Positions 12,350-44,751 of a DNA stretch of 53,156 nt are shown here, in pieces. Below the pieces are notes generated by a model, which saw nothing but the letters and a program-made list of their open reading frames with translations, was not told where the DNA came from and made no database searches. Source of the stretch: Belnapia moabensis DSM 16746 (GTDB lineage Bacteria; Pseudomonadota; Alphaproteobacteria; Acetobacterales; Acetobacteraceae); the NCBI RefSeq assembly GCF_000745835.1, contig NZ_KN050757.1, forward strand, positions 1 to 53,156. The letters run 5' to 3'. A program made the position numbers and the translations under genes. How positions within the stretch are numbered: position 1 is the stretch's first letter; each line of letters starts with the position of its first letter.

Positions 12350-12402
12350 CTTATCTTCCTCCCTAAATGGCCCCGAACGGCTAATGGATGCGGCGGCCTA
12401 GG

Positions 12403-15400: not shown

Positions 15401-16041
15401 CCGACGAGCCGGAAGGTCCTGGGGGCTGCAGCGACTGCGCGGAAACCGAGCTCGGCCCTGAGCACGATGCTCTCCACCGGTGCGCCGGTCACGAAGGCCT
15501 CCTCAAGCTCTAGCGCTTCAGCCGAGGTCAGGCGGGCCGAGAGAGACGCCCTGGGCGTCGCGCCCGGGACCAAGGCTTCGGCCAAGAGCCTATCGGGCTG
15601 GCCGGACTGCCCGTCACCATTCGCGACTGCCCCCGCCGGGGTCGGACTGACAAGGCGGAAGACGCTGTCTCGGGCGAAGATCGGCAAGCATTTAGCACCC
15701 GTCTTCCGCGCTAACGCGTCGCGTGCCAGCGGAGGAGGGGTTAGAGTGACGTCAAGGTTAAGTTGCCCGCCGTCGACCAGCGGTGCCCAAGCCTCACCGG
15801 GGTTGGGCTTGCGCCGCAGGAAGACGATCAGCGAGAAGACGGGCCATTCCTCCGGCCCTGTTGGCAAGGATGGCGCCTCGAGGGCGACGTGGAGGAGCGG
15901 CATGCTCCCCTCCGCCTGAAGCGCCGCGTTGGACGCGTCAGGCAGCGTGAGGAGGGAGACAAGGCCTTCCCGCCCAGCCTCGACCTGATGCCGCTCCCAC
16001 GCCGCAGCCGCGGATGGACCGGTTTTTTGGTCGCTGGGCAT
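12403..16041 (-). CDS. Unknown 1212-aa protein of the giant-protein run
   Basis: A 1212-aa protein from ATG 16041, with a GGGAGAGAGG purine tract upstream. I recognise no family. There is no signal peptide and no clear membrane segment. The middle (about residue 370-400) is a Gly/Pro/Thr-rich linker (RPGPTGPTTPAPR). The N- and C-terminal thirds are hydrophilic and rich in predicted beta strands. The C-terminal 250 residues resemble stacked beta-sandwich units (FALGLEDGALRMTNRTER; TKIALTARLRNVPG). The 3' gene starts 53 bases downstream and the 5' gene ends 74 bases upstream, in the same direction, consistent with an operon. A structural or scaffold role for the enzymes encoded beside it is a guess. 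Confidence 0.6.
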   Translation of the reverse strand: MPSDQKTGPSAAAAWERHQVEAGREGLVSLLTLPDASNAALQAEGSMPLLHVALEAPSLPTGPEEWPVFSLIVFLRRKPNPGEAWAPLVDGGQLNLDVTLTPPPLARDALARKTGAKCLPIFARDSVFRLVSPTPAGAVANGDGQSGQPDRLLAEALVPGATPRASLSARLTSAEALELEEAFVTGAPVESIVLRAELGFRAVAAAPRTFRLVGSWATIFDALAVAIGGAKEITPDGVRFAVDEILRNGALQAFDLDDDGEHLIQPPLPEDAFRLFLAQAVSVVLKRLMPHLTPDDAANRYQLDETRPMEVFTLDAVRRTSAGTSVRRFLAAASMGAVIGQVRAAGMPLDAAIQFHVMQGTSGPSAGEFRLGGASSRDPGRPGPTGPTTPAPRLVRSNKGAPWRSPIRGRQVMVAEANGGARALGAVLQTGARTTPAAALMLSDATLLRPVGDKLKVGWVDDIRVPFRPVKPTDGAESRPVVGNPGADPWPDRLSAGKNWFAPSYTPRMPDPAATPDNSPFLFTFEKTGVTESGVVGIRSSLTFTLSREFSASGGAAIAAKEQVVFWTVTNGLSVTLHLPFIDDGDGTLSSAPFPTSFHPQPDGSLRCTLILVNQWARLLYGALAIPNFQKQPVKVSVAYSFPAYIPAGRVRPMDWLVLSKEAKVLIARKAGDGAAFEGRTHFDETEGVVRNAAGEFRLKREAPRANVRTLKTVPREFPGAEAGVAPERALERGPQAALALRPAVGTVVKPGLLVRPIDTVPSVVVRPELRPVELDKLVFVRAEYYEQTIVREVTSDLLVPCSSFGAAYRDRTDGGDAAIGCLDAFALGSTDPTSHEEIPELATTRYRVFRSIQQLGRFVALPARYRVGRSDASAGTRAFAPTIALYSALDIANETRSRVAVDAALEPDMPPFVRQELLQALRERLHIDSPAVDYPTDVAKDIVITWNFPGGLAIEGQATRAPNGFRAILTTDLLGVVLLENLLCRDGVAAEVKFVMPDGSPMFSVLEVGVGTVAGTWATGPFALGLEDGALRMTNRTERAVDLAEVMALKAGAAAVRVPAEVKLVAGASHAVVLPTGTAEAFPVYEVPPAAPASIEEVRGVLDRVTADILFMDPIHYQNHALTKIALTARLRNVPGEQSVVMTRNDETNLGSGVATFILPLTTFLANRTVEFKVTKTFSDGRIEDTPWLAWDLNLQGVAVHLTWEMIAATA

Positions 16042-16115
16042 TCCGCCTCTCTCCCGTTTTGACTGGCCGGAGCGAGCGTCGCTCCGGCCGTGGTGCAGCG
16101 TGCAGCGACCGGGCG

Positions 16116-18668
16116 CTACTTGCGCACGTCCGGGATCTCGATCCAGGCGTCGACTAGCGCGTCATCGGAGGCGCCACGCCGTTCCGCGTCGTCGGGCTCC
16201 TCACGAGAAGTCGCCCCCTTGTCCTTGCCCACGCGGCTGGCGGCGGCGGCCTTGCGCGCCAGCCGTTCAAGCTCCTTCACGTAGCTCGACTCTGCCTCGA
16301 CGTTCGGCGTGGCGGTGTCCGTGGTCGACCGTGCTGTCCGGCCATCGTCGTCGCTCGGCGTCGACACCATCACGTAACGCAGCGAAAGGTCCTCCTTCTC
16401 CGCAGGTGCTCCGCGACCCGCCTTTGGGGCACCGATGCCTCCACCCATGCGCGGGGCACCGATCCCGCCGGCTTCAGCCGGAACGGGCGTGGTACCGGGC
16501 GCACCGATCGGCTCGGTACCCGTAGGCTTCGGCTCGCCGACAACACCCGTAATCGGCGGGCTCCCCTCGGATGCGCGGACGATGTCGCGGGACGACATCT
16601 CTCGCGGCGTCAGACGGCGCATGACGACGCCTGGCGAATCCGGGGACGGCACGTCGATGATAATCGGACCGTCACCGCTGACCGTCACCAGCGGCCCGCT
16701 CCAGGCCATGCCCTTGCTGAAGATCGTACCGCGAACCGTGACGTGGACCCTATAGTCATAGGCCGGGACGTAGTCGGCTTGGCCGGTGAACAGCTTCCAG
16801 ACACGCCCCTCGGCTTGGTCGCCGAACGCCCAGCGGAAGCGGACGACGTTGCGCGATCTGTCGACCCCCTTGGCGGTCGTGCCCTTCGGGATAAGCTCAA
16901 CCTCCACCAGTTCCGCTTCGCTCTGCAGAATAGAGGCGAGGATAATGGGCCCCACTTCCAAGGTGCCTGCCCTGTCGGCTCGCACCTCGTGGACCTTCTC
17001 GGTGGTTGGCGTACCTGTCGGCGGATCGAGCAAGGCGTCGTCCTGCTCAATCTGGACCCGCAGGAAGGGGAACTCGGTTGCGCCCGGCGGCTCTCTCAGC
17101 GCGACCCTCCGCCTGTTGTACGTCATGGACGGATCCCAACCTGCGGGGGGATTTTTCACCTCGCCGGGGTTCCAGCGCACCCATGCCGGGTTGAAACTAG
17201 CGTCGGGCGGATCCGACTTTTGGAAGGTCGCAGCTTTCCAAACGATCGATCCGTCCTCTCCGGGGTAGCCAGCCTCGGCGACGCTGAAGGCCACGGGATC
17301 GCCCACCCAGTTCTTAGTCGGATCGCCGTAGTCGACCACCGGCTTGAAGAGTCTGGTGATCTTCCTGCCAATGCCGCCGAGCACCTGGCGCTTGAAGTAC
17401 TTCTGCTCCGCGGCCGGGTCCGCCTTGATGTCCTCATAGAAGCCTTGCAAGGTGGAACTGATAGTGTTCGGCTGGATGTAGCGGAAGTTGCGGGTTTCCT
17501 CGTAGCTAACGTTGAGTCTGGTCGTGTCGCGGCGGTACTTGAGCGCGAGGCCCACGCCGTAGCTGAATAGAGAGCTCAGGGTGCCGCCCTTTCCGGCTTC
17601 CGCCGGCGGGACCACTGGGGCGGGCACAAAGATCACGGCCTTTGCCTGCTCGGTAAACTGCGCGACAATGACGTCGATCCGCTTGTTGACCTCTTCCTCC
17701 ATCTTGTCGGCTCCGGGGAGGGTGCCGTCGACGTCAACCTCCACCTTGATGCCGCCGTTGATGCGGAGGTTGTTGAACTCGGCCTTAATGTCGGCGCTGA
17801 ACCAGGCCAGTTTGGCATTCACCGCTGCGGAGAAGTGCTCAAAGACGCGATCCCAGTCGCCGGTGATCTTGATGCGCATGCGCTGCGACCACATCGGCAG
17901 TTGCATCGCCATGATTACGTTAAGCGGGCTGTAGGCGCCGTGAAAGCCGGTCCAGATCACCTCGCTGGGCAGCGCGCCCATGACTGCCGAAAACGCGTTC
18001 TCGCCGCCGGTGACGCTACCCGGCCCTTGGCCGAACATTTTGAAGCCCCAGGGGTCGACTGAAGACGGGCCCCGGAACCCTTTGACGTTGTGCGGCACGC
18101 GCAGCGGGTCGAGCAGACGGGTGCGGGAAGACATAACGCTCCTCGGAGCGCCCCCTGCAGGGGCATCTCCCCCGCCCGGCAGGGGTGGGACAGCCCCCGT
18201 CATGTCGGGCACGACGTTGCTCATGGAAACGACATTGGCCACGATGGGGCAGATGGCGAAGCGTGGGGCGACGGGCGTCCGCCACCCCCAATACATGTCA
18301 TCTTTGCCCTTGAACTTGGCCAAGAGCTGGTCCTGGGCTTGCTTCAGGACCTCGGTCGGATAACGCGAGGTCACCGTTAGGTTGAGCACGCCGAACTGGG
18401 TCTCGGAGTTACCGAGCCCTACGTTGGTATCCTCATCGAAGACGCCGACGTAGTGGGTATGGGAGAACTTGTAGTCTCCTACGTCCCCCTTGCGCGCCAG
18501 CCTGACCTCGCCCGGCATCCAGTAGTACGCGGGCGCCTGCCCGCTCGCTTGGAGCTCCTGGTTGTTGCGATCGGCTAGGTACAAGATGGTGTATTGTTCG
18601 CCGGAGGTCCCGTTAACGACGAATTCTTCGAACCTGCCCGTGTATACAGGGCCCACTGCGCTGACCAT
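16116..18668 (-). CDS. Unknown 850-aa protein, first gene of the giant-protein run
   Basis: An 850-aa protein from ATG 18668 behind AGGGAGA. No family recognised, no signal peptide. Residues about 1-130 are beta-rich (TLYLADRN-like strands, FSHTHYVGVFDED). A central segment (about 230-430) contains amphipathic helices and beta hairpins (DKMEEEVNKRIDVIVAQF, LALKYRRDTTRLNVSYEE) that look like a pore-like or fibre-like insertion, but this is speculation. The last 150 residues are low complexity, Gly/Pro-rich (RMGGGIGAPKAGRGAP), then charged. It heads the co-directional run, and the intergenic region upstream carries a perfect inverted repeat at 18880-18898. Confidence 0.6.
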   Translation of the reverse strand: MVSAVGPVYTGRFEEFVVNGTSGEQYTILYLADRNNQELQASGQAPAYYWMPGEVRLARKGDVGDYKFSHTHYVGVFDEDTNVGLGNSETQFGVLNLTVTSRYPTEVLKQAQDQLLAKFKGKDDMYWGWRTPVAPRFAICPIVANVVSMSNVVPDMTGAVPPLPGGGDAPAGGAPRSVMSSRTRLLDPLRVPHNVKGFRGPSSVDPWGFKMFGQGPGSVTGGENAFSAVMGALPSEVIWTGFHGAYSPLNVIMAMQLPMWSQRMRIKITGDWDRVFEHFSAAVNAKLAWFSADIKAEFNNLRINGGIKVEVDVDGTLPGADKMEEEVNKRIDVIVAQFTEQAKAVIFVPAPVVPPAEAGKGGTLSSLFSYGVGLALKYRRDTTRLNVSYEETRNFRYIQPNTISSTLQGFYEDIKADPAAEQKYFKRQVLGGIGRKITRLFKPVVDYGDPTKNWVGDPVAFSVAEAGYPGEDGSIVWKAATFQKSDPPDASFNPAWVRWNPGEVKNPPAGWDPSMTYNRRRVALREPPGATEFPFLRVQIEQDDALLDPPTGTPTTEKVHEVRADRAGTLEVGPIILASILQSEAELVEVELIPKGTTAKGVDRSRNVVRFRWAFGDQAEGRVWKLFTGQADYVPAYDYRVHVTVRGTIFSKGMAWSGPLVTVSGDGPIIIDVPSPDSPGVVMRRLTPREMSSRDIVRASEGSPPITGVVGEPKPTGTEPIGAPGTTPVPAEAGGIGAPRMGGGIGAPKAGRGAPAEKEDLSLRYVMVSTPSDDDGRTARSTTDTATPNVEAESSYVKELERLARKAAAASRVGKDKGATSREEPDDAERRGASDDALVDAWIEIPDVRK

Positions 18669-20599: not shown

Positions 20600-21570
20600 T
20601 TGCCGTTCAAGCTGAACCAGGACCGCCGCCACCATATCCCCAAGTAGACCCGCAAGGTTCAGAACTGGCACGAGTACGACGCCAGCCTGCGCCAGCGCGG
20701 CAGACTGACGGTGTGGTTCTCCGATGCGGCGATCGAGGGATGGCGCGCAGCGCCGCGCACTACCCCGGCGGGCAGCCCTGGTACTCTCCCCTGGCGATCC
20801 TGACGGCGCTGACCCTGCGGGTCGTGTTCCGCCTCGCGCTGCGCCAGACAGAGGGGCTGATCGGCTCCGTGCTGCAACTGCTCGGGCTGGCTCTGGCGGT
20901 GCCCGACCACACCACCCTGTGCCGCCGAGCCGAGACACTGGAGGTGCCGCGGCCCCGGCAGCGCAGGGAGGGTGAAGCCATCCACCTGCTGGTCGACAGC
21001 ACCGGCCTCAAGCTTTGCAGCGCGGGCGAGTGGCTGCTGGAGAAGCACGGCACCAGAACACGCCGGTCCTGGCGAAAGCTGCACATCGGCATGGATGCCG
21101 AGACCGGTCAGATTGTCGCGGCGGCGCTGACCACCATCGACGTCGATGATGGCGCCCAGGTTGGCTCCTTACTCGGCCAGGTGTCAGCACCGGTGGCCTC
21201 GTTCACCGCAGATGGCGCCCACGACCAGGAAGGCGTTTCCGCTGCAGTCGCCGACCGCCATCCGGATGCTGCGGTCATCGTGCCGCCGCGCTCCACGGCC
21301 GTGCCGAGCGAGACGGCGGAGACCGCGCCAACGCAGCGGGATCGTCACCTGAAGAGAATAACCGAGCACGGACGCGCGGCTTGGCAGAAGGCATCTGGCT
21401 ACACCAACCGAGCCCGCGTCGAAGCGGCTACCGGCAGGTTCAAACAGGTGATTGGTGATGGACTGCGTTGCCGCACGGACCAGCGTCGGGCGACCGAGGT
21501 GGACGTCGCCGTCCATGCGCTGAACCGCATGTTGGAGCTGGGGCGCCCGATCTCCGTCCGTACCGCCTGA
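20600..21570 (+). pseudogene. IS5-family transposase with early stop and frameshift
   Basis: From TTG 20600 the frame reads PFKLNQDRRHHIPK and then meets TAG at about 20645. It continues as TRKVQNWHEYDASLRQ and shifts frame near 20770. From 20713 onward a long open frame carries the rest of the transposase to TGA 21568-21570. That part includes LRQTEGLIGSV, HLLVDSTGLKL, DGAHDQEG and ARVEAATGRFKQVIGDG. It is the same family as 4548-5512 and 50388-51353 but clearly diverged from both. It was inserted eight bases beyond the stop codon of the amidase gene. Confidence 0.85.
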
Positions 21571-24188: not shown

Positions 24189-27100
24189 ATGGCGCTCCTC
24201 CCCCCACGCGTGATCGGCCCTTTGTCGGAGTGCAGCGGCAGCGTCAGGGTCCAGGCCCACCTCACCGGGGCGACAGTTACTATTTTCGCTGATGGCGCCG
24301 TCGTGGCTACCGGCGTCGCATCCTGGTCGGATCAGACCTTCCCGCTCAGCGTGCCGCTCTCGCCTGACCAGAACGTCACGGCGACGCAGACGGTCGGGAT
24401 GGAGACCAGCCCGGCGTCACCGGAAGCCGTGCAGGTGCAGGCCCGGCCACCGACGATCGGTCCAGTCGGATTCCGCAGCCATCTGAACCAGTGCGGCGAA
24501 TGCGTGTGGCTCGAAGGCTTGGTTCCCGGCGCGAAAGTGGAGCTGCGCGACGGCGCCACCGTGCTCGGCAGCGGCGAGAGCTATGACGGCAACGCGCGCT
24601 TCCACCTCGCCACGCCGCTTGCGCTCGGCATTGCGATCACGGCGCAGCAGACAGCCTGCGGCATCGCGGGCAGCGTGACGAACGGCCCACCCGTCGATGT
24701 GGTGGTGGAGAAGCAGCGCACGCTGCCGACACCGGTGGTGCAGTCGCCGCTGCGCGAATGCGAACGCAAGGTCACCATCAGCAACATCGTACACGGCGCG
24801 CAGGTGACGCTGATGCGCAGCGCCGGGCCGAACCTACAGGCCTGCTTCGGCCTCGACTCGTTGTGGATGGGCGTGAACCCGCCGCTCGCCCTAGGGGAAA
24901 CCATCTCGGCGCGGCAGGAGCTGCGCGGCCGTTGCAACCTGAAGAGCGCGGACGCCGATCCCGTCACCGTGCAGGACAACACGCCGGTCCCGGTGGCGAA
25001 CGTGGTGCCGCCGCTCTGCGACGGCAGCACAACGGTCGTGCTCAGCGGCCTAGTCATGGGCGCGCGCGTGCGCATCCTGGCCGACGGCGCGGAACTCGGC
25101 CTGGCCGAATCTCCGGTTGATGGAACCTACGATTTTCTTGTGCCGCCGTTGGGCGGCGGCGCGATGATCACGGCCAACCAGGAGCTGTGTGGCGAATGGA
25201 GCCTGCCCGGCCCCGGAGTGCCGGTAGACAAGGCGCCGTCCGCGCTTCCCACGCCCAAGCTGCATGAGCCGCTGTACGAATGCGGCGCGGCAGTGCGCGT
25301 TTCCAACCTGCATTTCGGCGCGCGGGTCTATGTCTACTCCACGCTTCTGGGCGCGCCCATCGGCGAGCGGACCGTCGAGGCCGACCAGGTCGATGTCGGC
25401 GTAGCGCCGCTGCTGATCGCGGGCGACACCATCTTCGCTGTTCAGCGCGGATGCGGGCTGGTGAGCTCTAAGTCCAACGCCGTCGTAGTCGGCAAGATCG
25501 AACGGGTGCCGCCGCCGCGTGTCGTTGAGCCGCTGTACTCCTGCGAGTCCGCGGTCCACGTCGTGGATGTCGTGCCCGGCGCCCGCGTCGATGTTTACGT
25601 CGACGGAAATTTCCGCGGCAGCGCCACCGGAGGCGGGACCGACCTGACCGTTGGCGTAAGCGGCGAACTCGAAATCGGCGATCAGGTGACGGCGCTACAA
25701 CGCCTGTGCGAGCATACCTCGCGCTCCAGCAGGCCGGTGACGGTGCTGGAGTTCCTTGGCCGCTGGCATCAAGTCGGCGGCGACACGGCGGCGGGCATCC
25801 TGGCGGTCCACGCGGCGTTGCTGCATACCGGCAAGATCGTCTATTTCGGCGGCGACCAGCACGACAGCGGCCTCAACACGTCCGGCGACGTGGACCACAC
25901 GCGCCTGTTCGACTGCACGACGCACGCGGTAACCAACGTCACCGGGCTCCCGGGCAACAGCGACCTCTTCTGCGCCGGGCATGCCCAGCTTGCCGATGGT
26001 CGGATCCTGGCTGCGGGCGGCACCCGCAAATGGGGCGGCGGCGGCGTCCATCCGTCCGGTCACTTCATCGGCTTGCGCGACGCCTGGCTGTTCGATCCCA
26101 CGGACGACCAGTGGCATGCAACCGGCAAGCTGGTGACGCAGCGCGCCGCGGAGGTCGCCGCGGGTCTCGACATCGAGAAGACCGGCGGCAAGTGGTACCC
26201 GACCCTGGTAACGCTGCCGGATGGGCGCGTGCTGGCCCTGTCAGGCCATCCGGAAATCGACGACAGCCGCCACAACAACAACTCGCTGGAGTTGTATGAT
26301 CCGGCGACCGGCGTCTGGTCGATCATCGGGCCGACGGACTACGCCAACATCGATTCCGTCGATGCGCGCCGCTACGAGTATCCGCGGCTGCACGTGCTGC
26401 CGGACGGCACTGTGATTTCCCTGTCTCCGATGTCGAACGGGCGGCTGGAACGCTGGCATCCCTATGCCGACGCCAATGATTGGGACGATGTGATCGCGCC
26501 GCCGACCGAAGGCATCTACGACAACGGCTTCGCACAGGATACGACATCGGTCCTGCTGCCGCTGTCGCCGGCCGATGGATACCGGGCCCGGCTGATGCAG
26601 ATCGGCGGCTCGACACCGTTCATCCTGGACATGGGCAATGTTGCTGCCGGATGGAGCGCGGCAACACGCGCCATGTTTGACCATCCGGCGAGCGGTGACG
26701 TGAACCCGGTGCGCGAAAACGCGGATGCCGTCATCCTGCCGACGGGCGAGATCCTCATTGAAGGCGGAATGAAGGTTGGCAACAGCGATGCCACCGCGGT
26801 ACGTGCACCGGAAACCTTCGATCCGGCGACCGGCACCTGGCGTGTGCTGCCAGCGACGTCGATCGTCCGCGGCTACCACAGCGTAGCCCTGCTGATGCCG
26901 AGCGGCGCCGTGTGGGTGGCGGGATCGAACTTCAACGCGAACTCGGGCATCGCGAACCGTGAACTCCGGATCGAGATCTTTGAACCCTGGTATTTCTGCG
27001 GTCGTCGCCCGTCGATCACCGATGCGGCGCCGAAGGCCTGCCACGGCGACGATGTCGAAATCCGCACGCCGGACGCAACCGACATCCAGCGCGTCGTCAT

Positions 27101-28244
27101 TGTTCGGTGCGGCACGGTCACGCACAACTTCAACCCAGACCAACGGCACATCACGCTCGAGTTCCGGCGCGACAAGGGCGACGTCATAGTGGCGCGCATC
27201 CCGGCCGAACTGAATGTAGCCATCGTCGGCTACTACCTGCTGTTCGTGATCGATTCGACGGGGCGTCCCAGCACGGGCCGGTTCATCCAGATTTGCCCTG
27301 GCAGCAGCAGGCCGCCGCGGCCCTGGCGGGACCCGGCCTGGTGGGAATGGTTGCGCGACCTGCTGCGCGACGGGCGCCGGTTGACCCCAGCCGAGACGCG
27401 CGGCATTCAGCGCGACTTGCTCGGCAGTCGCACTCCCCCGCGCAAGCGGCCGTTTTCGACGGAACCACATGGCCCGGGGGATCAGGGTGGGCACGCGCCA
27501 GGTGGCGGTCATGGCGGTGGCCCCGTCGTCGGCGGCCCCGGTGGCGGCGGTCATGGCGAAGGCGGCCATGTCGGCGGCCCAAATCCGGCGCTGCCCGAGA
27601 TGCCACAGGCGCGCGCCGTTCCCTACGCCATGCAGGGCACGTTCCTGGAGGTCTGCGATTGCTGGACCATCTGCCCGTGCTGGACCGGCCGCGGTCCGGA
27701 TGAGGACGTCTGTACCGGCGTCTTCGCCTGGGTCATCGAGAACGGACGGATCGATGATGTGGATGTGGGCGGGCTGACCGCAGTCAGCGTTTCGACCCAT
27801 ACCGGACACCGGAAGGATGCGCAGCAGCGGGTGCAGATCTTCGTCAGCGACGACGCGGACGATGCGCAGGCGCTGGCCCTCGCTGGTGCGTTCAGCGGTC
27901 TATACGGAGGTCCGCTCGGCGAACTCGGGCGGCTGCTGGGCGACCTTGCCGGTGTAGCCCGTGCGCCCATCGAGATCGATTTAGCCGCGCGCCGCGCCAA
28001 GCTCACGGTTGGACGCAGTATCGCCACTGAAACCAAGACCCTGACCGGACTCAACGGCGAGCCGATGACGCTGGCCGGAGCAAGACTTTCGAACGTTCTC
28101 GGCACGCCGGCAGAGGTCGGCGAGTCGCTGCGCCTCAAGGTCGGAATGCCGTCGCTTGGAGTGCAACTCGATCTGCAGGGGCGCAGCGCCATGCGCGGCC
28201 GGTTTAGCTACCGCCACGAGCCGGGCGAGCCGGGCAAGGCATGA
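24189..28244 (+). CDS. Galactose-oxidase-like copper radical oxidase fused to DUF1326
   Basis: A 1351-aa protein from ATG 24189 (MALLPPRVIGPL); ATG 24165 is an alternative. Residues 1-520 are six repeats of 80-93 residues beginning near 4, 85, 178, 264, 352 and 439, most with a Cys pair. Residues 520-1040 are a Kelch propeller plus DUF1929 domain with all galactose-oxidase (AA5) copper/radical positions. These are Cys595 (DLFCAGHAQL), Tyr670 (KWYPTLVTL), Tyr896-His897 (RGYHSVALL) and His979 (THNFNPDQR); the Cys-Tyr crosslink and the radical Tyr are implied. After a Gly/His-rich linker (about 1100-1145), a DUF1326 domain fills the C-terminus, starting with the Cys-rich EVCDCWTICPCWTG. It overlaps the DUF2182 gene by ATGA. 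The substrate is unknown. There is no visible signal peptide, odd for a copper enzyme with disulfides. Confidence 0.85.
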   Translation: MALLPPRVIGPLSECSGSVRVQAHLTGATVTIFADGAVVATGVASWSDQTFPLSVPLSPDQNVTATQTVGMETSPASPEAVQVQARPPTIGPVGFRSHLNQCGECVWLEGLVPGAKVELRDGATVLGSGESYDGNARFHLATPLALGIAITAQQTACGIAGSVTNGPPVDVVVEKQRTLPTPVVQSPLRECERKVTISNIVHGAQVTLMRSAGPNLQACFGLDSLWMGVNPPLALGETISARQELRGRCNLKSADADPVTVQDNTPVPVANVVPPLCDGSTTVVLSGLVMGARVRILADGAELGLAESPVDGTYDFLVPPLGGGAMITANQELCGEWSLPGPGVPVDKAPSALPTPKLHEPLYECGAAVRVSNLHFGARVYVYSTLLGAPIGERTVEADQVDVGVAPLLIAGDTIFAVQRGCGLVSSKSNAVVVGKIERVPPPRVVEPLYSCESAVHVVDVVPGARVDVYVDGNFRGSATGGGTDLTVGVSGELEIGDQVTALQRLCEHTSRSSRPVTVLEFLGRWHQVGGDTAAGILAVHAALLHTGKIVYFGGDQHDSGLNTSGDVDHTRLFDCTTHAVTNVTGLPGNSDLFCAGHAQLADGRILAAGGTRKWGGGGVHPSGHFIGLRDAWLFDPTDDQWHATGKLVTQRAAEVAAGLDIEKTGGKWYPTLVTLPDGRVLALSGHPEIDDSRHNNNSLELYDPATGVWSIIGPTDYANIDSVDARRYEYPRLHVLPDGTVISLSPMSNGRLERWHPYADANDWDDVIAPPTEGIYDNGFAQDTTSVLLPLSPADGYRARLMQIGGSTPFILDMGNVAAGWSAATRAMFDHPASGDVNPVRENADAVILPTGEILIEGGMKVGNSDATAVRAPETFDPATGTWRVLPATSIVRGYHSVALLMPSGAVWVAGSNFNANSGIANRELRIEIFEPWYFCGRRPSITDAAPKACHGDDVEIRTPDATDIQRVVIVRCGTVTHNFNPDQRHITLEFRRDKGDVIVARIPAELNVAIVGYYLLFVIDSTGRPSTGRFIQICPGSSRPPRPWRDPAWWEWLRDLLRDGRRLTPAETRGIQRDLLGSRTPPRKRPFSTEPHGPGDQGGHAPGGGHGGGPVVGGPGGGGHGEGGHVGGPNPALPEMPQARAVPYAMQGTFLEVCDCWTICPCWTGRGPDEDVCTGVFAWVIENGRIDDVDVGGLTAVSVSTHTGHRKDAQQRVQIFVSDDADDAQALALAGAFSGLYGGPLGELGRLLGDLAGVARAPIEIDLAARRAKLTVGRSIATETKTLTGLNGEPMTLAGARLSNVLGTPAEVGESLRLKVGMPSLGVQLDLQGRSAMRGRFSYRHEPGEPGKA

Positions 28245-29029
28245 GAAGCATCATCGCTTTGCCGCCGAGGATTGTCGCGCCGGCGCGGGTCGCGCTGGCC
28301 GTGTTTGGGGTGTCCGGGGCGGGGCTGGCACTGCTGGCCGCTGGAGATGCGACCGGCTGGCTGCCCCACGCTGCAAACGCCGCGTTCTTGGGCGTCGCCG
28401 CCTGGATCGCGCTGTTCCTCGCCGGTTGGACCCTGATGACATGCGTGATGATGCTGCCGTCGTCTCTGCCGTTCCTGCTGACTGTGCAACGGGCGGGCGG
28501 CCCGGACGCGAGCATGACGGCGGGCATCGGGTTCACTGCAACCTGGTTCGCGGTTGGCATCGTGGTGTGCCTGGCTATTTGGGCCGCGGGCGGTTGGCTC
28601 GATGGCGCCGCGCTTGGAGAGGCTGAACGGCACTTGGCCGGCGCAAGCCTAATCGTTGCTGCGCTGTATCAGGCCAGCCCGCTGGCGCGCTCCTGCCAGC
28701 GCGCCTGCGCCCGGCCTTTCGGCATCCTGGCGCGGTCCTGGCATGGCGCGGGAACGCCCTGCCGCGACGCGTTCATGGCAGGGCTCCGCTACGGCATGAG
28801 CTGCGTCGGCTGCTGCGTGCCGATGATCGTCGTGATGATGCTTGTCGGGGTCCACGACCTTGGATGGATGGCCGGCCTGGCCCTGGTGATGATGATGCAG
28901 AAGCACGCCGTGTGGGGTCCAAGAATCATGTCGGCGGCGGCAGTGGCGCTGACGGTGGCGGGGCTTGGCATAGGCGCCGGATGGTGGGTGGTGCCCCTGC
29001 ATTCCTTGCGCGCGCTTTGTGGCGTTTGA
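28241..29029 (+). CDS. DUF2182 integral membrane protein
   Basis: A 262-aa polytopic membrane protein whose ATG overlaps the stop codon of the oxidase gene (ATGA), implying translational coupling. Family marks include MTCVMMLPSSLPFL near residue 65 and YGMSCVGCCVPMIVVMMLVG near 185. Near 210 comes ALVMMMQKHAVWG, with Met, Cys and His residues in membrane helices. DUF2182 proteins are annotated as predicted metal-binding membrane proteins and often sit beside DUF1326 genes. The Met/Cys/His content and the partner oxidase make copper handling the natural guess, for example passing copper to the DUF1326 domain and then the oxidase. The metal and direction of transport are not shown by the sequence. 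Confidence 0.85.
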   Translation: MRSIIALPPRIVAPARVALAVFGVSGAGLALLAAGDATGWLPHAANAAFLGVAAWIALFLAGWTLMTCVMMLPSSLPFLLTVQRAGGPDASMTAGIGFTATWFAVGIVVCLAIWAAGGWLDGAALGEAERHLAGASLIVAALYQASPLARSCQRACARPFGILARSWHGAGTPCRDAFMAGLRYGMSCVGCCVPMIVVMMLVGVHDLGWMAGLALVMMMQKHAVWGPRIMSAAAVALTVAGLGIGAGWWVVPLHSLRALCGV

Positions 29030-30549: not shown

Positions 30550-32397
30550 ATGGCAATCTGGAGGACGAGCTGGGCCGTTGGATTAGCCGCAGGCACAGCT
30601 ATTGCCGCCTGTGGCGTGCCACATGCCGAAAAGCCTACAGTTCAGGGATGGACTGAGATGCAGCGCTCGGAGTGGTACGAGGCTACCCAGGGCTCACGCC
30701 TCATCCCTTATGACTGGTTTGAAGCACTGGAACAGCCCGGCTCCGACCGCCCCTTCCTCGACGACGCCTACATAGCTAGCTTCCGCTACCTGCCTCGCAC
30801 CACCTCATTCGGCGTCCGCCTGCCCCTCGGCTTTGCGCTCGACCAAAGGGACGACACTAGCCTTTCTCACACGCGGCTGCGTTGGAAGGTCGGGCAGCGC
30901 TCCAACGAGCGTTGGGTCGGGATGAACTGCTCGGCCTGCCACACGGCCGAGATCACTTACGCAGGTCGAAGCGTACGGGTCGACGGCGGCCCAACGCTCG
31001 CAGACTTCCAGGGCTTCATTGAGAGCCTCAATCAGGCATTGTCTCAGACTTCGGCCGAGCCTGCCAAATGGGACCGCTTCGCTGCCCGCGTCTTAAGAGC
31101 TGAGGACACCTCGGCTAACAGAGCCATGCTCCGCGAGGCTTTTGGTGAGTTGACCTCCTGGCAGGCGACCCAACTGCGAATGAATCAGACGCCGCTGCGC
31201 TACGGCTACGGACGCCTAGACGCTTTCGGGCACATCTTTAACAAGGTGGCTTTGGTAGCAGACCCGACCAACGCTACGCCCAATCCGGCCGATGCCCCGG
31301 TCAGCTACCCCTACCTCTGGAATATCCACCAACTTGGCCACGTTCAGTACAATGCTATCGTTGAGAACTCACCCGTCCGGTCACCCATCAGCGGCGGCAC
31401 CTTCGATATCGGCGCCCTGGGCCGGAACACCGGCGAGGTAGTCGGAGTCTTTGCCGACGTAGCCGCACGGCGAGATCCCGGACTAGGCGGGTTCGCGTCG
31501 AGTGTGGACGTGGGTAGCCTAGTGGCGCTGGAGCAGCGCCTTATGCGATTGGAACCACCGAAGTGGCCATCCGACTTTCCGCCGATCGATGAGAGGCTAG
31601 CGGCGCAAGGGGAAACGCTGTTCAGGGCGAACTGCGCCTCCTGCCACATACCCTTGGCGAACCTCACCACCCGCGTGCCCGACCGGATTAGCACCTTCAA
31701 CCCTGCAAGCGCACCCGATGCGGCAGACCCTGCACGGGATAAGCCGCCAGGTACTGACCCCTGGATGGCGTGCAACGCTTACACATATCGCTCGGCGTCT
31801 GGAGTGATGGAGGGGCTGCCCGCAGCTTACATCTCTGGTGCTCCTTTAGAGCGCGAAGCTAATCTATCTGACATGCTGCAGACCACGGTGGCCGGCGTCC
31901 TAATCGGAGCGAAAAGCCAAGTCGTCCAGAGCGCGTTCGCCACCTTCCTCTTTGGCGACCGGCCACCTCGGGTTATTACAGCCCCGCCTCCCGTTGCTGC
32001 CGCCCCCACCCCACGTGTAATCGACCCGCGGCAGGCTCGGTTGGACCGTTGCATGCAGGAGCGCAGCGTACTCTTAGGCTACAAGGCTCGGCCGCTGAAC
32101 GGCATTTGGGCAACCGCGCCCTATCTACATAACGGCTCCGTGCCAAACCTTTACCAGCTGCTCCTCCCACCATCCCAGCGTGTCACTGCGTTCCATGTAG
32201 GCACACGCGAGTTCGACCCGCGGCACGTCGGGTACATCACGGATCAGGCCGCCCCAGGCAACACCCACACGTTCTCGGTCACGAATCTAGATGGGCGACC
32301 CATCCCCGGCAACTCGAACGCGGGGCACGACTACGGGAACGCAGAGCTTGACGAGGCCGCACGCCTTGCAATCATCGAGTACATGAAAAAGCTTTGA
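30550..32397 (+). CDS. RoxA/MauG-like dihaem cytochrome c, lipoprotein
   Basis: A 615-aa protein from ATG 30550 behind GGGAGG. The N-terminus (WAVGLAAGTAIAACGVP) is an export signal with a lipobox-like IAAC. Two c-type haem sites are present: CSACH at residues 127-131 and CASCH at 362-366. Near residue 510-530, RPLNGIWATAPYLHNGSVP is a signature shared with the RoxA rubber oxygenase and with annotated di-haem cytochrome c peroxidases. Likely an exported oxidoreductase using peroxide or O2. Whether it is a peroxidase, a dioxygenase or an electron carrier cannot be decided; the similarity to rubber oxygenases is family level only. A gap of 230 bases separates it from the next gene, so cotranscription is uncertain. 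Confidence 0.8.
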   Translation: MAIWRTSWAVGLAAGTAIAACGVPHAEKPTVQGWTEMQRSEWYEATQGSRLIPYDWFEALEQPGSDRPFLDDAYIASFRYLPRTTSFGVRLPLGFALDQRDDTSLSHTRLRWKVGQRSNERWVGMNCSACHTAEITYAGRSVRVDGGPTLADFQGFIESLNQALSQTSAEPAKWDRFAARVLRAEDTSANRAMLREAFGELTSWQATQLRMNQTPLRYGYGRLDAFGHIFNKVALVADPTNATPNPADAPVSYPYLWNIHQLGHVQYNAIVENSPVRSPISGGTFDIGALGRNTGEVVGVFADVAARRDPGLGGFASSVDVGSLVALEQRLMRLEPPKWPSDFPPIDERLAAQGETLFRANCASCHIPLANLTTRVPDRISTFNPASAPDAADPARDKPPGTDPWMACNAYTYRSASGVMEGLPAAYISGAPLEREANLSDMLQTTVAGVLIGAKSQVVQSAFATFLFGDRPPRVITAPPPVAAAPTPRVIDPRQARLDRCMQERSVLLGYKARPLNGIWATAPYLHNGSVPNLYQLLLPPSQRVTAFHVGTREFDPRHVGYITDQAAPGNTHTFSVTNLDGRPIPGNSNAGHDYGNAELDEAARLAIIEYMKKL

Positions 32398-33995: not shown

Positions 33996-34234
33996 ATCCG
34001 ACTACTCCGCCGTCGAGGAAGGGTCTGGGTGTAGACATCATCCCGTCAACACCGCTCCAGGCTGCCCCCGACGGGCAGGTGCGGGAGCTCGGCTCCGCGA
34101 CGGCGAAGACGGCCGGACGCATATCGTGTCCAGCACCACATTTTAACCAGGGGAAAAGCAATGAAGCTTGTTCATACATCGTCAAAGGTGCTTGCGGCTT
34201 GGCTGGCGTTGCAGACGGCCACGGCTGTGTGTAA
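33992..34234 (+). CDS. Possible small ORF overlapping two genes
   Basis: Starts with ATG 33992, overlapping the lipoprotein stop as ATGA, and runs 80 codons (MNPTTPPSRKGLGVDIIPS...), overlapping the start of the trypsin gene by 74 bases in another frame. It has no signal peptide and no family. The coupling geometry supports translation, but the overlap into the trypsin signal peptide argues against it. Confidence 0.2.
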   Translation: MNPTTPPSRKGLGVDIIPSTPLQAAPDGQVRELGSATAKTAGRISCPAPHFNQGKSNEACSYIVKGACGLAGVADGHGCV

Positions 34235-35021
34235 CGCGCAGAGCACCGCCGGACTCGTGATGGACGCGGCGCCACTGCTCGCAAGTTCGGACTCTCGACC
34301 GCAGGTCACTGGGGGCCGCATCGCGTCGCGGGACGACTGGCCCTCCACGCTGGCCTTCCGCACGGCGAGTGGGGTTTGCACGGCGACTGCCATCGGTCCC
34401 CGCGTCGTTTTAACGGCGGCCCACTGCGTAGACGACGGGGCCACCGGCATCGTGCGGCTGAATCCTAGCGACGAGGTGGGCGTCCGTTGCGACCACCACC
34501 CACGCTACCGTGGTGGCGAGCAGGGCGGGGACATATCAGCTGACTACGCGCTCTGCCTGACCGCCGGCCCAATGCCTGTGCCGACACGCGGCTCTACAGT
34601 CGTGGGCTTTGAGGTTCTCGAGACATCGGCGGAGCGGCCCGGCGATGGTGCCGAGGTCGTCCTGCTCGGCTTCGGGTGCTCGGAGCGGAGCCAATACGGC
34701 TTACTGAATGAGGGCGACGCCAACGTCACTGTACGCCCGCCGCGATCGCAGTATGGTCGGAATTACATCGAGACCGGCCTGGCGAGCGGAGCGGGTCAAG
34801 CGGCTGTTTGCCCCGGTGACAGCGGCGGTGGAGCCTTCACGTCGTCGCTCAGCGGGCGCCGCGTATTCGGCGTCAACTCCCGCGTGCGGGATGGGGTTTC
34901 TTGGATCTCCGCGACGTCGACGGACGACTTCCGCGCCTGGGCCAATGGTTGGGTGGAGGATCCGCGCCGGCGCGTTGCAATATGCGGCCTTGTGGGACCG
35001 CAAGACAGCTGTCGGCGCTGA
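34161..35021 (+). CDS. Secreted trypsin-like serine protease (S1)
   Basis: A 286-aa protein from ATG 34161 behind AGGGGA. It has a signal peptide (VLAAWLALQTATAVCNAQ), then a short pro-region up to QVTGGRIASRDDWPS. The triad is complete: His88 in LTAAHCVDD, Asp128 in SADYALCL and Ser221 in CPGDSGGG. The VTGG segment stands in for the IVGG new N-terminus of activated trypsins, so removal of about 25 residues after the signal peptide is probably required for activity. The C-terminus (RAWANGWVEDPRRRVAICGL) is closely matched in the N-terminal domain of the next gene. This indicates a tandem duplication. The two genes are 61 bases apart. Confidence 0.85.
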   Translation: MKLVHTSSKVLAAWLALQTATAVCNAQSTAGLVMDAAPLLASSDSRPQVTGGRIASRDDWPSTLAFRTASGVCTATAIGPRVVLTAAHCVDDGATGIVRLNPSDEVGVRCDHHPRYRGGEQGGDISADYALCLTAGPMPVPTRGSTVVGFEVLETSAERPGDGAEVVLLGFGCSERSQYGLLNEGDANVTVRPPRSQYGRNYIETGLASGAGQAAVCPGDSGGGAFTSSLSGRRVFGVNSRVRDGVSWISATSTDDFRAWANGWVEDPRRRVAICGLVGPQDSCRR

Positions 35022-35082
35022 CGGACATCGGTTACAGGCGTCGGGTTCGAGGGGAATCAAGGGCTGATCAGAGGAGGACATC

Positions 35083-38058
35083 GTGCGCACCACAGTACGT
35101 TTGGCTGTTGTCGCCTTCGCGGGAGGCGCACTGCTCCGGCTCCTAACGGGTACGGCCGGCGCCATTGAGGGCGGCGAGGTCGCTCGCCAAGCCGACTGGC
35201 CCTCGACGGTGCTGATACACAACACCCAGGGCAGCATCTGCACCGGTACCCTCATCGGCCCACGCGTTGGGCTGATCGCCAGCTTTTGCGTGGAGGACGG
35301 TTTCCGCGGCCGACTGGCCCTGGCCGACGATGGCTTTACGGCGACCCAGCTCGACGACACGGCAAGCGGCCTGCCCGGCCGCACGTTCCGCATCGAGTGC
35401 ACCCATCACCCCGCTGCCAAGCAGTCAGCGTCGTTGGGCTTGGCTCTGTGCGTCACCGATGTGCCGATCCCGTCGCTCCTACCCGCGCGCGTCAACACCG
35501 ACGAGAACCTGCCGCGCGTTGGGCAGGAGGTTGCCCTGGTTGGTTACGGGTGCTTTCGAAGGACGGCCGCCGGGACCGATTTCGGCACGCTGCGCGTCGG
35601 CTCCACCCGCGTGGTCGAGCCGCCCGCGTCAATTAAAGGTCCCGCCGCGCTGTTTGACGGTGCGGTATTCACCGAGGGAAGCGCATCGAGCTGCGCGGGC
35701 GACGCAGGCGGCGGTGTATACGTGGCACCAGATGCAAGTACCAGCGTAGGACCACGTGCGCGCGGTCCGCTGCTAGTGGGGGTGCAGTGGGGCTACCGTC
35801 TATCGGGCACGGTCACGCAGTCCGTCGTCGCTCCAACCGGATCCGGTGAGTTCCTGCAGTGGGCGCGGGGCTGGGCGCGCGAGCGTCGCGTGGACATCTG
35901 TGGGCTCGAAGGCGATGTGGGCTGTGACGCTTCACCACCAGGGGACGGCGGAACGGGCAACCTCGCTGCCCCAGGTCTGGACGGAGGCCTGCCCACAACA
36001 GCGGTCGCGCCGCCAGCCCTGGCTAGCGCCGCGGCCAATGCTGCGGCGGTGCGCCGCGTGCGCCGTATTCTCGTGACCTACCGGAATGGGCAGACGGCGC
36101 GCGACGTCGTCGTCGAGCACTGTGGCGAGCAGCCGGGCATCTACTATGAGGATCTCGTCGAACCGGGCGGTCCTCCCTCGGCGGACCATCGCTTCGAGCG
36201 CGAGGGCACGACCCTCATCCCGATCTGCGCCGCGCTCGACCGGCTTCCGCCGCTGGACGAGCAGGCCGCGCTTCCAGGGGAGCGGATCTGCGATCTTTAT
36301 GCACGGCTCAGAAGCGCCGGTGGGCTCCGGGACGGGTGGGACCAGAGCTGCACGCGGCCGACCAACGGGAGCAGGCCTGAGCGCGGCTACGCAAGCGCCT
36401 ACTTCGCTGAAGTCTTTGCTCTGGTGAACGCCCGCGATTTGCGTGGCAAGAACGATGTGGATCTCTCTACCTTCGCCAGTGTCCAGGTCCCGCTCGCGCC
36501 GGTGCGACCGGACAGCGGTGCCGCAGCGTTCGCTACGCCGGTCACCTCGGTGGAGCGCTGGACCATGGCGTGGAGCGACGCGGACCTCCAGACTGCCCCG
36601 GACCGCCTGCGCTGCGAGGCGCCTCAGTCGGAGAACGCGGCGGCGCATCCGTTCGATCTCTATGCCATGCTGGACGCATTTGCGATCAACGACGTGGCGC
36701 GCGGCGACGAACGGCTTCGAAAACCCGCTCTGCTGCTGGTCGCCGACACGGGCCTCCAGCCCTCGGCCTACCTGCCGGAACTCTTCAGGCGTCGGTATGT
36801 CACGCTCCTCACAGGGTCCGACTACAAGCCGGCGGCCGGCGCTGCGCCCTTCAGGCGCGGCCCGGAGCCGCCCTGGCACGGCACGGCGGTCGCGTCGCTC
36901 GCTATGGGTGGACCCTTCTTTGTACTAGCTGCCCGGGGCGGCCTTCTGCAGGATCGAATTTCTTTCGAGGTCATGAGGCTTTACGAGTACGAAACATCGG
37001 GTGGATCGACCCCATACTATACGATTCGTACCGGGGCACTGACCCAGCTCCTGCGGCGCGTAAGCATTATGCCGTACGTCGTCAACCTAAGCCTCTCATC
37101 GCCGAACAATCTCCCGGAACTGAGCCGGCTTAGCGAGAGCTACTCGGACGACTTGTTCGTTGTCGCTGCGGGAAACGACGGGCACCCGCTCCACGACCCT
37201 AGCCGGCGCGTCTTCCCAGCTCAGTACGGCGGCCAGAGTCGCTCCAACAACATGCTCGTCGTCGCCGCCCTGGAGGGCGCCGGCGACCGCCTTGCACGCT
37301 TCTCGAACTACGGCACGGGCCACGTGGATATCGCCGCTCCAGGCTGCGAGGTTCCGGCCTTTGCATTCGACGTCGAACCCTGGCCGCCGGCAGGCTTTCG
37401 GACAAGCCGCCTGAGCGGCACGTCCGTGGCGGCGCCCCTCGTCTCGTTCGCGGCGGCGCTGGTACGCGCCGAAGTGGGACCCGAGGCTTCCGCGGCAGCT
37501 ATCCGGGAGCGCCTGCTGACAGCCGCTGACCTGGAGCGGCGGCTGCATGAGGAGAATCGCGACGGACAGCCCGATGCCATGGGTCAAGTGTATCACGGTC
37601 GTCGCCTGAATATCTCAAAGGCGATGCTGGTCTATCACGACCTGATCGAAGTAACCGGGCCGGCTGGGCGCCCGGCGTTGTATGCGGGCCGTCTAGTATT
37701 CGGGCGAAGGCGTGCGCCAGGGGGTGAGGCCGAACAACTGTCCGGGCGGGAAGCGATTGGCATGGCGTGCGGCCGTGGCGACCGACGTCTGTTCTCGCTT
37801 GAAAGCGACACGGAGCCGCGGATCGCTAAGGTTTGGCCACGCTACCGGAACGACGACGGCGGGCGAGCCATGGTGTACTTTAGGGCGGATCCGACGTCCG
37901 AGCTGGAGTGGGCGGAGTGCACGCTCCCGCCTGATTTGGTAATCGGCTTCCAGCGCGAGCGCCCGGAGAGGCGAGACACAGACTCAGTCGTTTGGTACGA
38001 CTGGAGCAGCATCCGTGACGTGATCCCGCGCTGGTACCCGCCCCTGCTACAGCGGTAG
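35083..38058 (+). CDS. Pseudo-trypsin fused to an intact subtilisin (S8)
   Basis: A 991-aa exported protein from GTG 35083 behind GGAGG. The signal peptide ends in TAGA, and the mature chain would begin IEGGEVARQADWPS, already an IVGG-like end. The trypsin fold (about 28-275) has lost its triad: AHC is SFC (Phe68 for His), the Asp position reads SLGLALCV (Gly119) and the Ser motif is CAGDAGGG (Ala208). After a Pro/Gly/Ala linker and an unassigned region, an S8 domain occupies about 545-840. It has Asp555 (LLLVADTGLQ), His599 (WHGTAVASLA), the oxyanion Asn in VVAAGNDG, and Ser781 (LSGTSVAAPL), all intact. The dead domain could bind substrate, act as an inhibitor or interact with the active trypsin encoded just upstream. 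This functional link is inference. Confidence 0.85.
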   Translation: MRTTVRLAVVAFAGGALLRLLTGTAGAIEGGEVARQADWPSTVLIHNTQGSICTGTLIGPRVGLIASFCVEDGFRGRLALADDGFTATQLDDTASGLPGRTFRIECTHHPAAKQSASLGLALCVTDVPIPSLLPARVNTDENLPRVGQEVALVGYGCFRRTAAGTDFGTLRVGSTRVVEPPASIKGPAALFDGAVFTEGSASSCAGDAGGGVYVAPDASTSVGPRARGPLLVGVQWGYRLSGTVTQSVVAPTGSGEFLQWARGWARERRVDICGLEGDVGCDASPPGDGGTGNLAAPGLDGGLPTTAVAPPALASAAANAAAVRRVRRILVTYRNGQTARDVVVEHCGEQPGIYYEDLVEPGGPPSADHRFEREGTTLIPICAALDRLPPLDEQAALPGERICDLYARLRSAGGLRDGWDQSCTRPTNGSRPERGYASAYFAEVFALVNARDLRGKNDVDLSTFASVQVPLAPVRPDSGAAAFATPVTSVERWTMAWSDADLQTAPDRLRCEAPQSENAAAHPFDLYAMLDAFAINDVARGDERLRKPALLLVADTGLQPSAYLPELFRRRYVTLLTGSDYKPAAGAAPFRRGPEPPWHGTAVASLAMGGPFFVLAARGGLLQDRISFEVMRLYEYETSGGSTPYYTIRTGALTQLLRRVSIMPYVVNLSLSSPNNLPELSRLSESYSDDLFVVAAGNDGHPLHDPSRRVFPAQYGGQSRSNNMLVVAALEGAGDRLARFSNYGTGHVDIAAPGCEVPAFAFDVEPWPPAGFRTSRLSGTSVAAPLVSFAAALVRAEVGPEASAAAIRERLLTAADLERRLHEENRDGQPDAMGQVYHGRRLNISKAMLVYHDLIEVTGPAGRPALYAGRLVFGRRRAPGGEAEQLSGREAIGMACGRGDRRLFSLESDTEPRIAKVWPRYRNDDGGRAMVYFRADPTSELEWAECTLPPDLVIGFQRERPERRDTDSVVWYDWSSIRDVIPRWYPPLLQR

Positions 38059-39895: not shown

Positions 39896-41194
39896 GTGTC
39901 TGACCAGATGAGCGTTGTTCCGCCCGTGGCCAGTGGGCGGGGGCAGTCGATGAGGATGCCGGACGAGGTGGCGGCGATGCTGCGGCTACGGGATCTGGGC
40001 TGGGGCACGCGGCGGATCGCGGCGGAACTCGGTTGCAACCGCGAGACCGTGCAGCGCTACCTCGGCGCGGGCGGGTGGGCGCCGTATCGCACGCCCGAGC
40101 GGCCCGGGGCGCTGGCCGGGCATGGGGCGTGGCTGGCCGCGCGGCTGCGCCGCCATCGCGGCAATGCCGACCTGGTGCGCCAGGAGCTGTCGGCCGAGCT
40201 GGGGATTGTTGTCAGCCTGCGCACGGTCGAGCGGGCGGTGGCGGACTTGCGGCGCGAGCTCGCGGCGGAGGCGCTGGCGACGGTGCGCTTCGAGACGCCA
40301 CCGGGGCGGCAACTGCAGATCGACTTCGGCGAGCGTTGGGTGGCGATCGGCGATGAGCAGGTGCGGGTCTACCTGTTTGTGGCGACCCTCGGCTACTCGC
40401 GCCGGGTCTATGCCCACGCCTTCCGGCACGAGCGGCAGTCAGCCTGGTTCGAGGGGCTGGAGGGTGGGTTCCGGCATTTCGGCGGCCTGCCCAAGGAGGT
40501 GCTGCTCGACAATGCCAAGGCGCTGGTCGAGCACCATGACCCGGCCACCCGGGAGGTGGTGTTCAACGCCCGCTTGCACGCCTTCGCGCGGTACTGGGAC
40601 GTGCGGCCAGTGGCCTGTGCGCCGTACCGGGCGCGGACCAAGGGCAAGGACGAGCGCGGGGTCGGCTACGTCAAGCGCAATGCCATCGCGGGCCGGAGCT
40701 TCGCCAGCTGGGCGGCGCTGGAGGCGCACCTGGCGTGGTGGATGCGCGAGATCGCCGACCAGCGCGTGCACGGCACCACGGGCGAAGTGCCGATGCTGCG
40801 GTTCGAGCGCGAGGAGCGGCAGGCGCTGCGTCCGCTCGGCGGCAAGCCACCGTTCCGCCAGATGCGTGAGCTGACCCGCTGCGTGCAGAACGACGGCTGC
40901 GTGGACGTCGACACCAACCATTACAGCGTGCCCTGGCAGCTGATCGGCGCCCAGGTCAGCGTGGTGGTCAACGACGGCGAGGTGCGGATCAGCCATGCGG
41001 GCGCCGAGGTGGCACGTCATGGGCAACGGCGGGGTCGGCGCGAGCGCGCCGTGGATCGTGCCCACCTGCGCGGCATCGTGGTGGGTGCTCAAGGCGAGCC
41101 GCGGCTCGACGGCGTGGTGGAGGCGCTGGCGCCTGGCGCCGATCTCCTGCGGCCGTTGGCCGAGTACGAGCAGGTGACGGGAGGCGCGTGGTGA
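39896..41194 (+). CDS. istA: IS21-family transposase IstA
   Basis: A 432-aa protein from GTG 39896. An N-terminal helix-turn-helix region (GTRRIAAELGCNRETVQRYL, residues about 37-56) should bind the IS ends. The rve-type catalytic core has Asp in QLQIDFGERW (near 140), Asp in EVLLDNAKALVEH (near 206) and Glu in KGKDERGVGYVK (near 255). The C-terminus contains VDVDTNHYSVPW, a usual IstA element. The stop codon overlaps the start of istB by a few bases. It performs cut-and-paste or replicative strand transfer with IstB as its ATPase partner. Confidence 0.93.
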   Translation: MSDQMSVVPPVASGRGQSMRMPDEVAAMLRLRDLGWGTRRIAAELGCNRETVQRYLGAGGWAPYRTPERPGALAGHGAWLAARLRRHRGNADLVRQELSAELGIVVSLRTVERAVADLRRELAAEALATVRFETPPGRQLQIDFGERWVAIGDEQVRVYLFVATLGYSRRVYAHAFRHERQSAWFEGLEGGFRHFGGLPKEVLLDNAKALVEHHDPATREVVFNARLHAFARYWDVRPVACAPYRARTKGKDERGVGYVKRNAIAGRSFASWAALEAHLAWWMREIADQRVHGTTGEVPMLRFEREERQALRPLGGKPPFRQMRELTRCVQNDGCVDVDTNHYSVPWQLIGAQVSVVVNDGEVRISHAGAEVARHGQRRGRRERAVDRAHLRGIVVGAQGEPRLDGVVEALAPGADLLRPLAEYEQVTGGAW

Positions 41195-44749: not shown

Positions 44750-44751
44750 CC

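Follow-up and report, generated by a model that had tools for sequence, protein, structure and literature searches.

A copper radical oxidase fused to a DUF1326 domain and paired with a PpoB2-family membrane protein in Belnapia moabensis: a candidate copper-loading arrangement

How might a copper radical oxidase that appears to remain in the cytosol, a compartment with very little free copper, obtain its metal? The question is raised by a locus of Belnapia moabensis DSM 16746 within a stretch of 53,156 nucleotides (contig NZ_KN050757.1, positions 1 to 53,156; hereafter the window), which had received a first-pass annotation made from its sequence alone. One gene of the locus encodes an oxidase of family AA5 joined to a DUF1326 domain, and the gene overlapping its end encodes a membrane protein of family DUF2182. 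Copper loading is the most likely role of the DUF1326–DUF2182 pair, because a relative of the membrane protein, PpoB2, delivers copper to the oxidase of its operon. The probability is about 0.55 that the two genes encode a copper radical oxidase together with an apparatus dedicated to loading its copper, in which, in outline, the fused DUF1326 domain loads the AA5 site in the cytosol. If this is true, the locus is an example of cytosolic assembly of such an oxidase. The fusion points to a probable client and cargo of the orphan pair, which can therefore be examined with one enzyme assay.

Organization of the fused gene and the oxidase

The locus contains the following features.

24189..28244, + strand: fused gene for repeats that look immunoglobulin-like (Ig-like), an AA5 copper radical oxidase, a Gly/His linker, and DUF1326 (1351 residues)
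24189..25748, + strand: N-terminal array of about six repeats of 80–90 residues, recognized by self-similarity
25749..27311, + strand: AA5 domain, kelch propeller and GO-like_E_set; closest solved chain 4unm_A
25971..25973, + strand: Cys595, predicted Tyr-Cys cross-link partner (alignment to 4unm_A)
26196..26198, + strand: Tyr670, predicted radical and ligand Tyr, after Trp669 as in 4unm
26874..26879, + strand: Tyr896 and His897, predicted copper ligands (alignment to 4unm_A)
27123..27125, + strand: His979, predicted copper ligand (alignment to 4unm_A)
27312..27620, + strand: linker containing a Gly/His/Pro-rich stretch (five His)
27621..28241, + strand: complete DUF1326 domain with five invariant Cys
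28241..28244, + strand: ATGA, where the stop codon of the fused gene overlaps the start codon of the DUF2182 gene
28241..29029, + strand: DUF2182/PpoB2-family membrane protein (262 residues)

The fused gene starts at ATG 24189, with an alternative ATG at 24165, and its stop codon occupies positions 28242–28244; the mechanically defined open reading frame opens upstream, at TTG 23922. Pfam matches in the product are Kelch, GO-like_E_set (9e-18), and DUF1326 (PF07040, 1.3e-34). The N-terminal repeats, which look Ig-like in the author's own reading, match no Pfam family at the Pfam cut-off. The first-pass annotation had proposed that the oxidase and DUF1326 form one chain, and the single frame of 1351 residues with its Pfam domains confirms this. 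The length of an open frame alone is no proof of a fusion, because 10 out of 10 long DUF1326 frames inspected in other genomes are non-coding upstream of the domain. Here, the fusion is established by homology on both sides of the linker. The guanine-cytosine (GC) content by codon position follows the order second < first < third in the Ig-like, AA5, DUF1326, and DUF2182 parts, and the Gly-rich linker deviates from this order. Stand-alone DUF1326 proteins begin about 10 residues before their first Cys, a segment that the window domain retains.

A phmmer search of the PDB returned chain 4unm_A as the top match (5.9e-39). The PDB table lists this chain as 'secreted protein'; it is presumably GlxA of Streptomyces lividans. 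The Cys, Trp-Tyr, Tyr-His, and His positions of the two proteins pair up, and the five ligand and radical residues named in the annotation (Cys595, Tyr670, Tyr896, His897, and His979) lie where it had placed them. The window protein thereby has the sequence features of an AA5 oxidase: the Cys/Tyr pair predicted to be cross-linked, an axial Tyr, two His, and a kelch propeller together with an E-set domain. The NCBIfam GlxA equivalog NF052501 scores 200.5 bits with the whole protein and 207.5 bits with the AA5 part, far under its cut-off of 800. Therefore, the oxidase is GlxA-like but is not GlxA.

No hydrophobic segment was found by a 19-residue hydropathy scan of the fusion protein, nor in the first 200 residues of the frame that opens at TTG 23922. 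Judged by hydropathy alone, no signal peptide is evident; therefore, copper loading would be cytosolic. The relatives of the window oxidase in Cupriavidus oxalaticus (L021) and genome G086 (L134) also begin with no evident leader, whereas the AA5 oxidases of the Burkholderia loci carry a hydrophobic leader, as judged by eye. The stand-alone DUF1326 proteins of the same subfamily likewise begin without a leader. One DUF1326 match with an internal stop codon (L152, G200:C140:84608-85129) has a leader of the twin-arginine translocation (Tat) type in appearance; therefore, the cytosolic location may not apply to the whole DUF1326 family. In G086, the AA5 protein with no evident leader (L134, 2354-6160) has a further uncommon architecture, with a C-terminal extension of about 740 residues for which Pfam has no match. 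AA5 also occurs within a 3185-residue open frame of G070 (L139, 3154-12708), a candidate frame only, and in candidate open frames of about 1700 residues in the Burkholderia genomes G740, G746, and G718.

DUF1326 and DUF2182 form a conserved pair

The annotation had taken DUF2182 to be the usual neighbour of DUF1326, and this holds in two sets of genomes. When GTDB genomes were scanned, an alignment of six DUF1326 domains yielded 230 confirmed loci, of which the best 80, mostly from Burkholderiales, were analysed. In 78 of the 80, DUF1326 is followed by DUF2182 on the same strand; the exceptions are L062, where the contig ends, and L068. The two genes overlap by four bases in 38 of these 78 loci, a count based on the first available start codon, which favours overlaps. 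In a sample of 398 Pseudomonadota genomes, DUF1326 is present in 44 (about one in nine) at 61 places, and PF09948, the Pfam family of the DUF2182 protein, is found within 1.5 kb at 56 of them, downstream of DUF1326 at 33 and upstream at 23. The linkage in both sets identifies the pair as a conserved unit. The gene order is variable in the phylum sample; therefore, the order and the ATGA overlap mark a subfamily and not the whole family. The overlap of the window genes, which the annotation had noted and which is present in the sequence, is ordinary for that subfamily. Stand-alone pairs resemble the window genes in adjacency, in the four-base overlap, and in their invariant Cys and Met residues; unlike the window pair, they have no fused enzyme. 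The window genome itself holds a second, stand-alone pair on contig C200, and both window domains score below this other copy. DUF1326 is also present in 60 of 376 sampled Actinomycetota genomes (about one in six), one of which has three tandem matches (G858:C5:50722-52652).

The DUF1326 domain of the window scores 120.3 bits against a cut-off of 25 and contains the motif C-x-C-x3-C-P-C and a fifth Cys. The Cys-rich CDCWTICPC start described in the annotation was located at residue 1156. Cys1156, 1158, 1162, 1164, and 1175 are invariant in 26 of 26 domains of the subfamily, as well as in 10 more diverse ones, and the window domain is 33–39% identical to the aligned stand-alone members. Its structure was modelled with a predicted local distance difference test (pLDDT) value of 89 and a predicted template modelling score of 0.86; its weak parts include model residues 21–30 (pLDDT 63), which separate the fourth Cys from the fifth.

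The membrane protein matches PF09948 at 1.3e-37, with 130 bits against a cut-off of 28.7. This family is named PpoB2, 'Copper chaperone', in Pfam, and plasmid records label matches of the window protein DUF2182; COG5486 and DUF2182 are taken here to be one family. The protein has six hydropathy segments and an all-helical model (mean pLDDT 80.8), and it is 26–35% identical to the aligned members of stand-alone pairs. Both its score and its multi-pass character place it in PF09948. Sequence searches of the PDB returned no match for DUF1326 or DUF2182, and among the PDB matches of the DUF2182 model none is better than E 0.5. Met66, 70, 71, 210, and 217 and Cys152, 156, 188, 191, and 192 are invariant in 38 DUF2182 proteins, including that of the window. 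The loop of residues 145–173, which carries a CxxxC motif, is the most basic one, with family means of 5.5 Lys/Arg and 1.6 Asp/Glu; therefore, the positive-inside rule would place it in the cytosol. The CxxxC loop and the DUF1326 domain, which has no evident leader, would thus lie on the same, cytosolic side.

A proposed path of copper and its precedents

Copper delivery is the reading that fits the two genes best, given a DUF2182 relative that supplies copper to the oxidase of its operon, the invariant thiols and Met residues, and the conserved pairing. DUF2182, a polytopic Met/Cys-rich PpoB2-family protein, would handle Cu(I) in the inner membrane and present it on the cytosolic CxxxC loop. 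The Cys-rich DUF1326 domain, tethered to the oxidase by the flexible Gly/His linker, would accept the copper and pass it to the AA5 site, where copper and O2 would form the Tyr-Cys cofactor. This scheme goes by inference where it has DUF1326 bind copper, sets the direction in which the metal moves, places loading in the cytosol, and takes the oxidase to be active. More tentatively, DUF1326 might be a general copper-accepting partner of PpoB2-family membrane proteins, with the fusion as a self-loading cytosolic copper radical oxidase, and the orphan family DUF1326 would then gain a function; this wider proposal is regarded as possible rather than probable.

Both families had been described in the annotation as lacking an established role. 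For DUF1326 this stands, since full-text searches of the papers available turned up no role. It does not stand for DUF2182, in view of the Pfam name and of PpoB2 from Marinomonas mediterranea. According to the available text of a 2010 review, PpoB2 shares an operon with the tyrosinase PpoB1, gives copper specifically to PpoB1 and not to the laccase PpoA, and was the first member of COG5486 to be assigned a role (PMC2855505). Copper loading by the DUF2182 family is, given this precedent, not a wholly new idea. The window likewise combines a copper oxidase gene and a PpoB2-family gene in one operon. It differs in that the client is an AA5 radical oxidase instead of a tyrosinase, and in that this client carries a fused DUF1326 domain; the portion of the review at hand does not mention DUF1326 for the Marinomonas system.

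A second precedent is the GlxA-Sco-DtpA system of S. lividans, in which a GlxA-type AA5 oxidase needs a copper chaperone for Tyr-Cys formation. The accessible part of the source states that Sco is required for GlxA maturation and that sco and dtpA mutants without added copper contain immature GlxA; it also reports that Gox and sco genes co-occur in Burkholderia (PMC4736821). Sco is an extracellular chaperone; by contrast, the window has a different chaperone family, no SCO gene nearby, and an oxidase with no evident leader. The only SCO match above the cut-off in the window genome lies on contig C9, and a weak one below the cut-off lies on C50, whereas the window is contig C29. Elsewhere, seven SCO1-SenC genes adjoin AA5 in 6 of 15 loci (L055, L123, L128 twice, L130, L131, and L133). 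Five of the six are from Burkholderia, and the sixth, L123, is from the family of the window. These loci (Burkholderia and genome G682 of the window's family) resemble the window in that AA5 lies beside a copper-chaperone gene; they differ in that the chaperone is SCO1-SenC instead of a fused DUF1326 with DUF2182, and in the hydrophobic leader of the Burkholderia oxidases. Chaperone genes thus recur next to AA5 without being universal there, and in the window the place of the chaperone is held by the DUF1326–DUF2182 pair.

Evidence against copper delivery and alternative explanations

Several results weigh against a dedicated copper-loading apparatus. The window DUF2182 protein lacks four near-invariant residues, His34, His184, Met196, and Glu220 (kept in 35, 36, 37, and 37 of the 38 proteins), which are replaced by Ala, Tyr, Ile, and Gln. 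As none of these residues is known to be essential, the protein still counts as a member of PF09948. In the PDB, the structures closest to the DUF1326 model are acetoacetate decarboxylase-like barrels, with a weak resemblance (E 1.3e-6, TMq 0.41–0.49) that concerns the barrel shape and does not amount to an assignment; no known copper chaperone is among these best matches.

The association of the pair with copper enzymes is also weak. In the surroundings of the 80 pair loci, taken out to 10 kb or to the end of the contig, AA5 occurs in two (Burkholderia arboris and B. cepacia) and tyrosinase in two (Caballeronia; a crude search with one query sequence and a motif), and a crude motif scan found no multicopper oxidase. 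The 211 proteins that flank 38 largely non-redundant pair loci include no copper enzyme in the 25 commonest families of either half, out of 140 and 127 families matched. AA5 (PF09118) is present in 10 of the 398 Pseudomonadota genomes, and in none of the nine other than that of the window is it beside DUF1326. In the Actinomycetota sample, where AA5 is present in 35 genomes, the two were never seen on the same contig by eye, many contigs being short. The annotation had held that a lack of association with copper enzymes elsewhere would speak against copper delivery, and such a lack is found in part. Elsewhere, AA5 and the pair are almost never neighbours; as a general rule, then, the pair does not serve AA5.

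A wider AA5–pair association suggested by B. arboris was rejected and is read as coincidence. The AA5 gene of this species has matches in 14 of 65 Burkholderia genomes, seven of them strong (E <1e-30), and in only two of those seven does it adjoin a DUF2182 gene, in convergent orientation; in B. cepacia (L055), the AA5 gene next to DUF2182 has its own SCO gene. At the level of genomes, AA5 and DUF1326 co-occur in Pseudomonadota in 4 of 9 AA5 genomes without the window genome (expected 1.0, p 0.010) and in Actinomycetota in 9 of 34 without the centre genome (expected 5.3, p 0.066) or 10 of 35 with it (p 0.035), but these statistics ignore genome size and kinship and are given little weight. In the Caballeronia loci L030, L032, and L027, a tyrosinase gene with a Tat-like leader lies about 2 kb from the DUF1326–DUF2182 pair, recalling PpoB1-PpoB2.

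The scarcity of copper enzymes near most pairs would be expected if the pair served general cytosolic copper buffering or detoxification, with the fusion tethering the oxidase to the membrane or shielding the cell from its copper. Sensors, transporters, and metabolic enzymes make up the commonest neighbour families (25 for each half), AA5 is also present in only 5 of 44 and 10 of 60 DUF1326 genomes (Pseudomonadota and Actinomycetota), and the second, stand-alone pair is kept in the window genome. Such a role is nevertheless considered unlikely: a covalent link with a copper enzyme speaks for delivery, and the sole DUF2182 protein that has been studied supplies copper to one enzyme and not another, as far as the available review text goes.

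The parallel with SCO genes is limited as well. In the remaining loci other than L137 and L139, the AA5 neighbours tested (in L129, L135, L136, L138, L140, L141, and L142) include no SCO gene, nor do the other AA5 neighbours tested in L123 and L131. For the nine AA5 loci that the phylum sample holds apart from the window, neighbours were partly covered, and no SCO gene was identified beside AA5. AA5–SCO neighbours are confined mainly to one genus, and SCO beside AA5 as a general rule was rejected on the count of 6 of 15 loci.

The AA5–DUF1326 fusion was found in one genome only, a draft of 6.73 Mb spread over 282 contigs, with 98.95% completeness and 4.24% contamination. A frame long enough for AA5 and DUF1326 was defined as 700 residues or more. 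Such frames over DUF1326 were limited to the window in the Pseudomonadota sample, to two spurious ones in the Actinomycetota sample, and to the spurious L062 in the 80 loci; among 299 genomes of the order, searched at the protein level with at most three candidates scored in each, no other such frame or fusion came up. The candidates L062, L143, L144, L146, L148, L149, L150, and L151 and the second DUF1326 copies in L145 and L147 were rejected as non-coding upstream, by composition or codon-position GC. Further DUF1326 frames, of up to about 400 residues in the phylum samples and up to 587 in the order search, are too short for AA5 and DUF1326.

A singleton in such a draft could be an incidental or degenerating fusion, in which the oxidase became joined in frame to the first gene of a resident operon with no functional coupling. 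The four lost DUF2182 residues and the lower scores of both window domains relative to the other copy in the genome point the same way. However, the frame is open across 1351 codons with a coding pattern, and the five AA5 residues, the ten invariant Cys of the pair, and the four-base overlap are all retained, which makes an incidental fusion improbable. Export of the oxidase without a classical signal peptide, with DUF1326 as a binding or sorting barrel and no metal carrier, is highly improbable: it could draw on the lack of an evident leader in the window protein, L021, and L134, on the Ig-like array, of a kind typical of surface proteins, and on the protease genes downstream, but DUF1326 is intact, all its thiols are kept, and the gene of its membrane partner is present.

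Other genes of the window

A di-heme cytochrome c peroxidase gene with a RoxA-like stretch (30550-32397, + strand; NF040606, 579 bits) lies 1.5 kb downstream of the pair. Its product could consume H2O2 from the AA5 oxidase, by analogy with the peroxidase that accompanies GlxA. Farther downstream on the + strand, the regions 34161-38058 and 44731-47643 hold a trypsin-like protease gene and a fused trypsin-subtilase of 991 residues; a trypsin-like match at 44731-47643 falls below the Pfam cut-off.

On the − strand, two proteins have BTRD1 polyglycine-hydrolase-like repeats (2315-4264 and 7727-8644), one of them joined to an M23 peptidase. Positions 8714-18668 on the same strand hold three large open reading frames of 1211, 1212, and 850 residues; the first encodes a subtilase with a weak M15 match, and the other two match no Pfam family. 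Three related DDE transposases, 63–75% identical (4629-5303, − strand; 20713-21570 and 50388-51353, + strand), and an IS21-type pair (39896-41985, + strand) are also present; therefore, the region is rich in insertion sequences.

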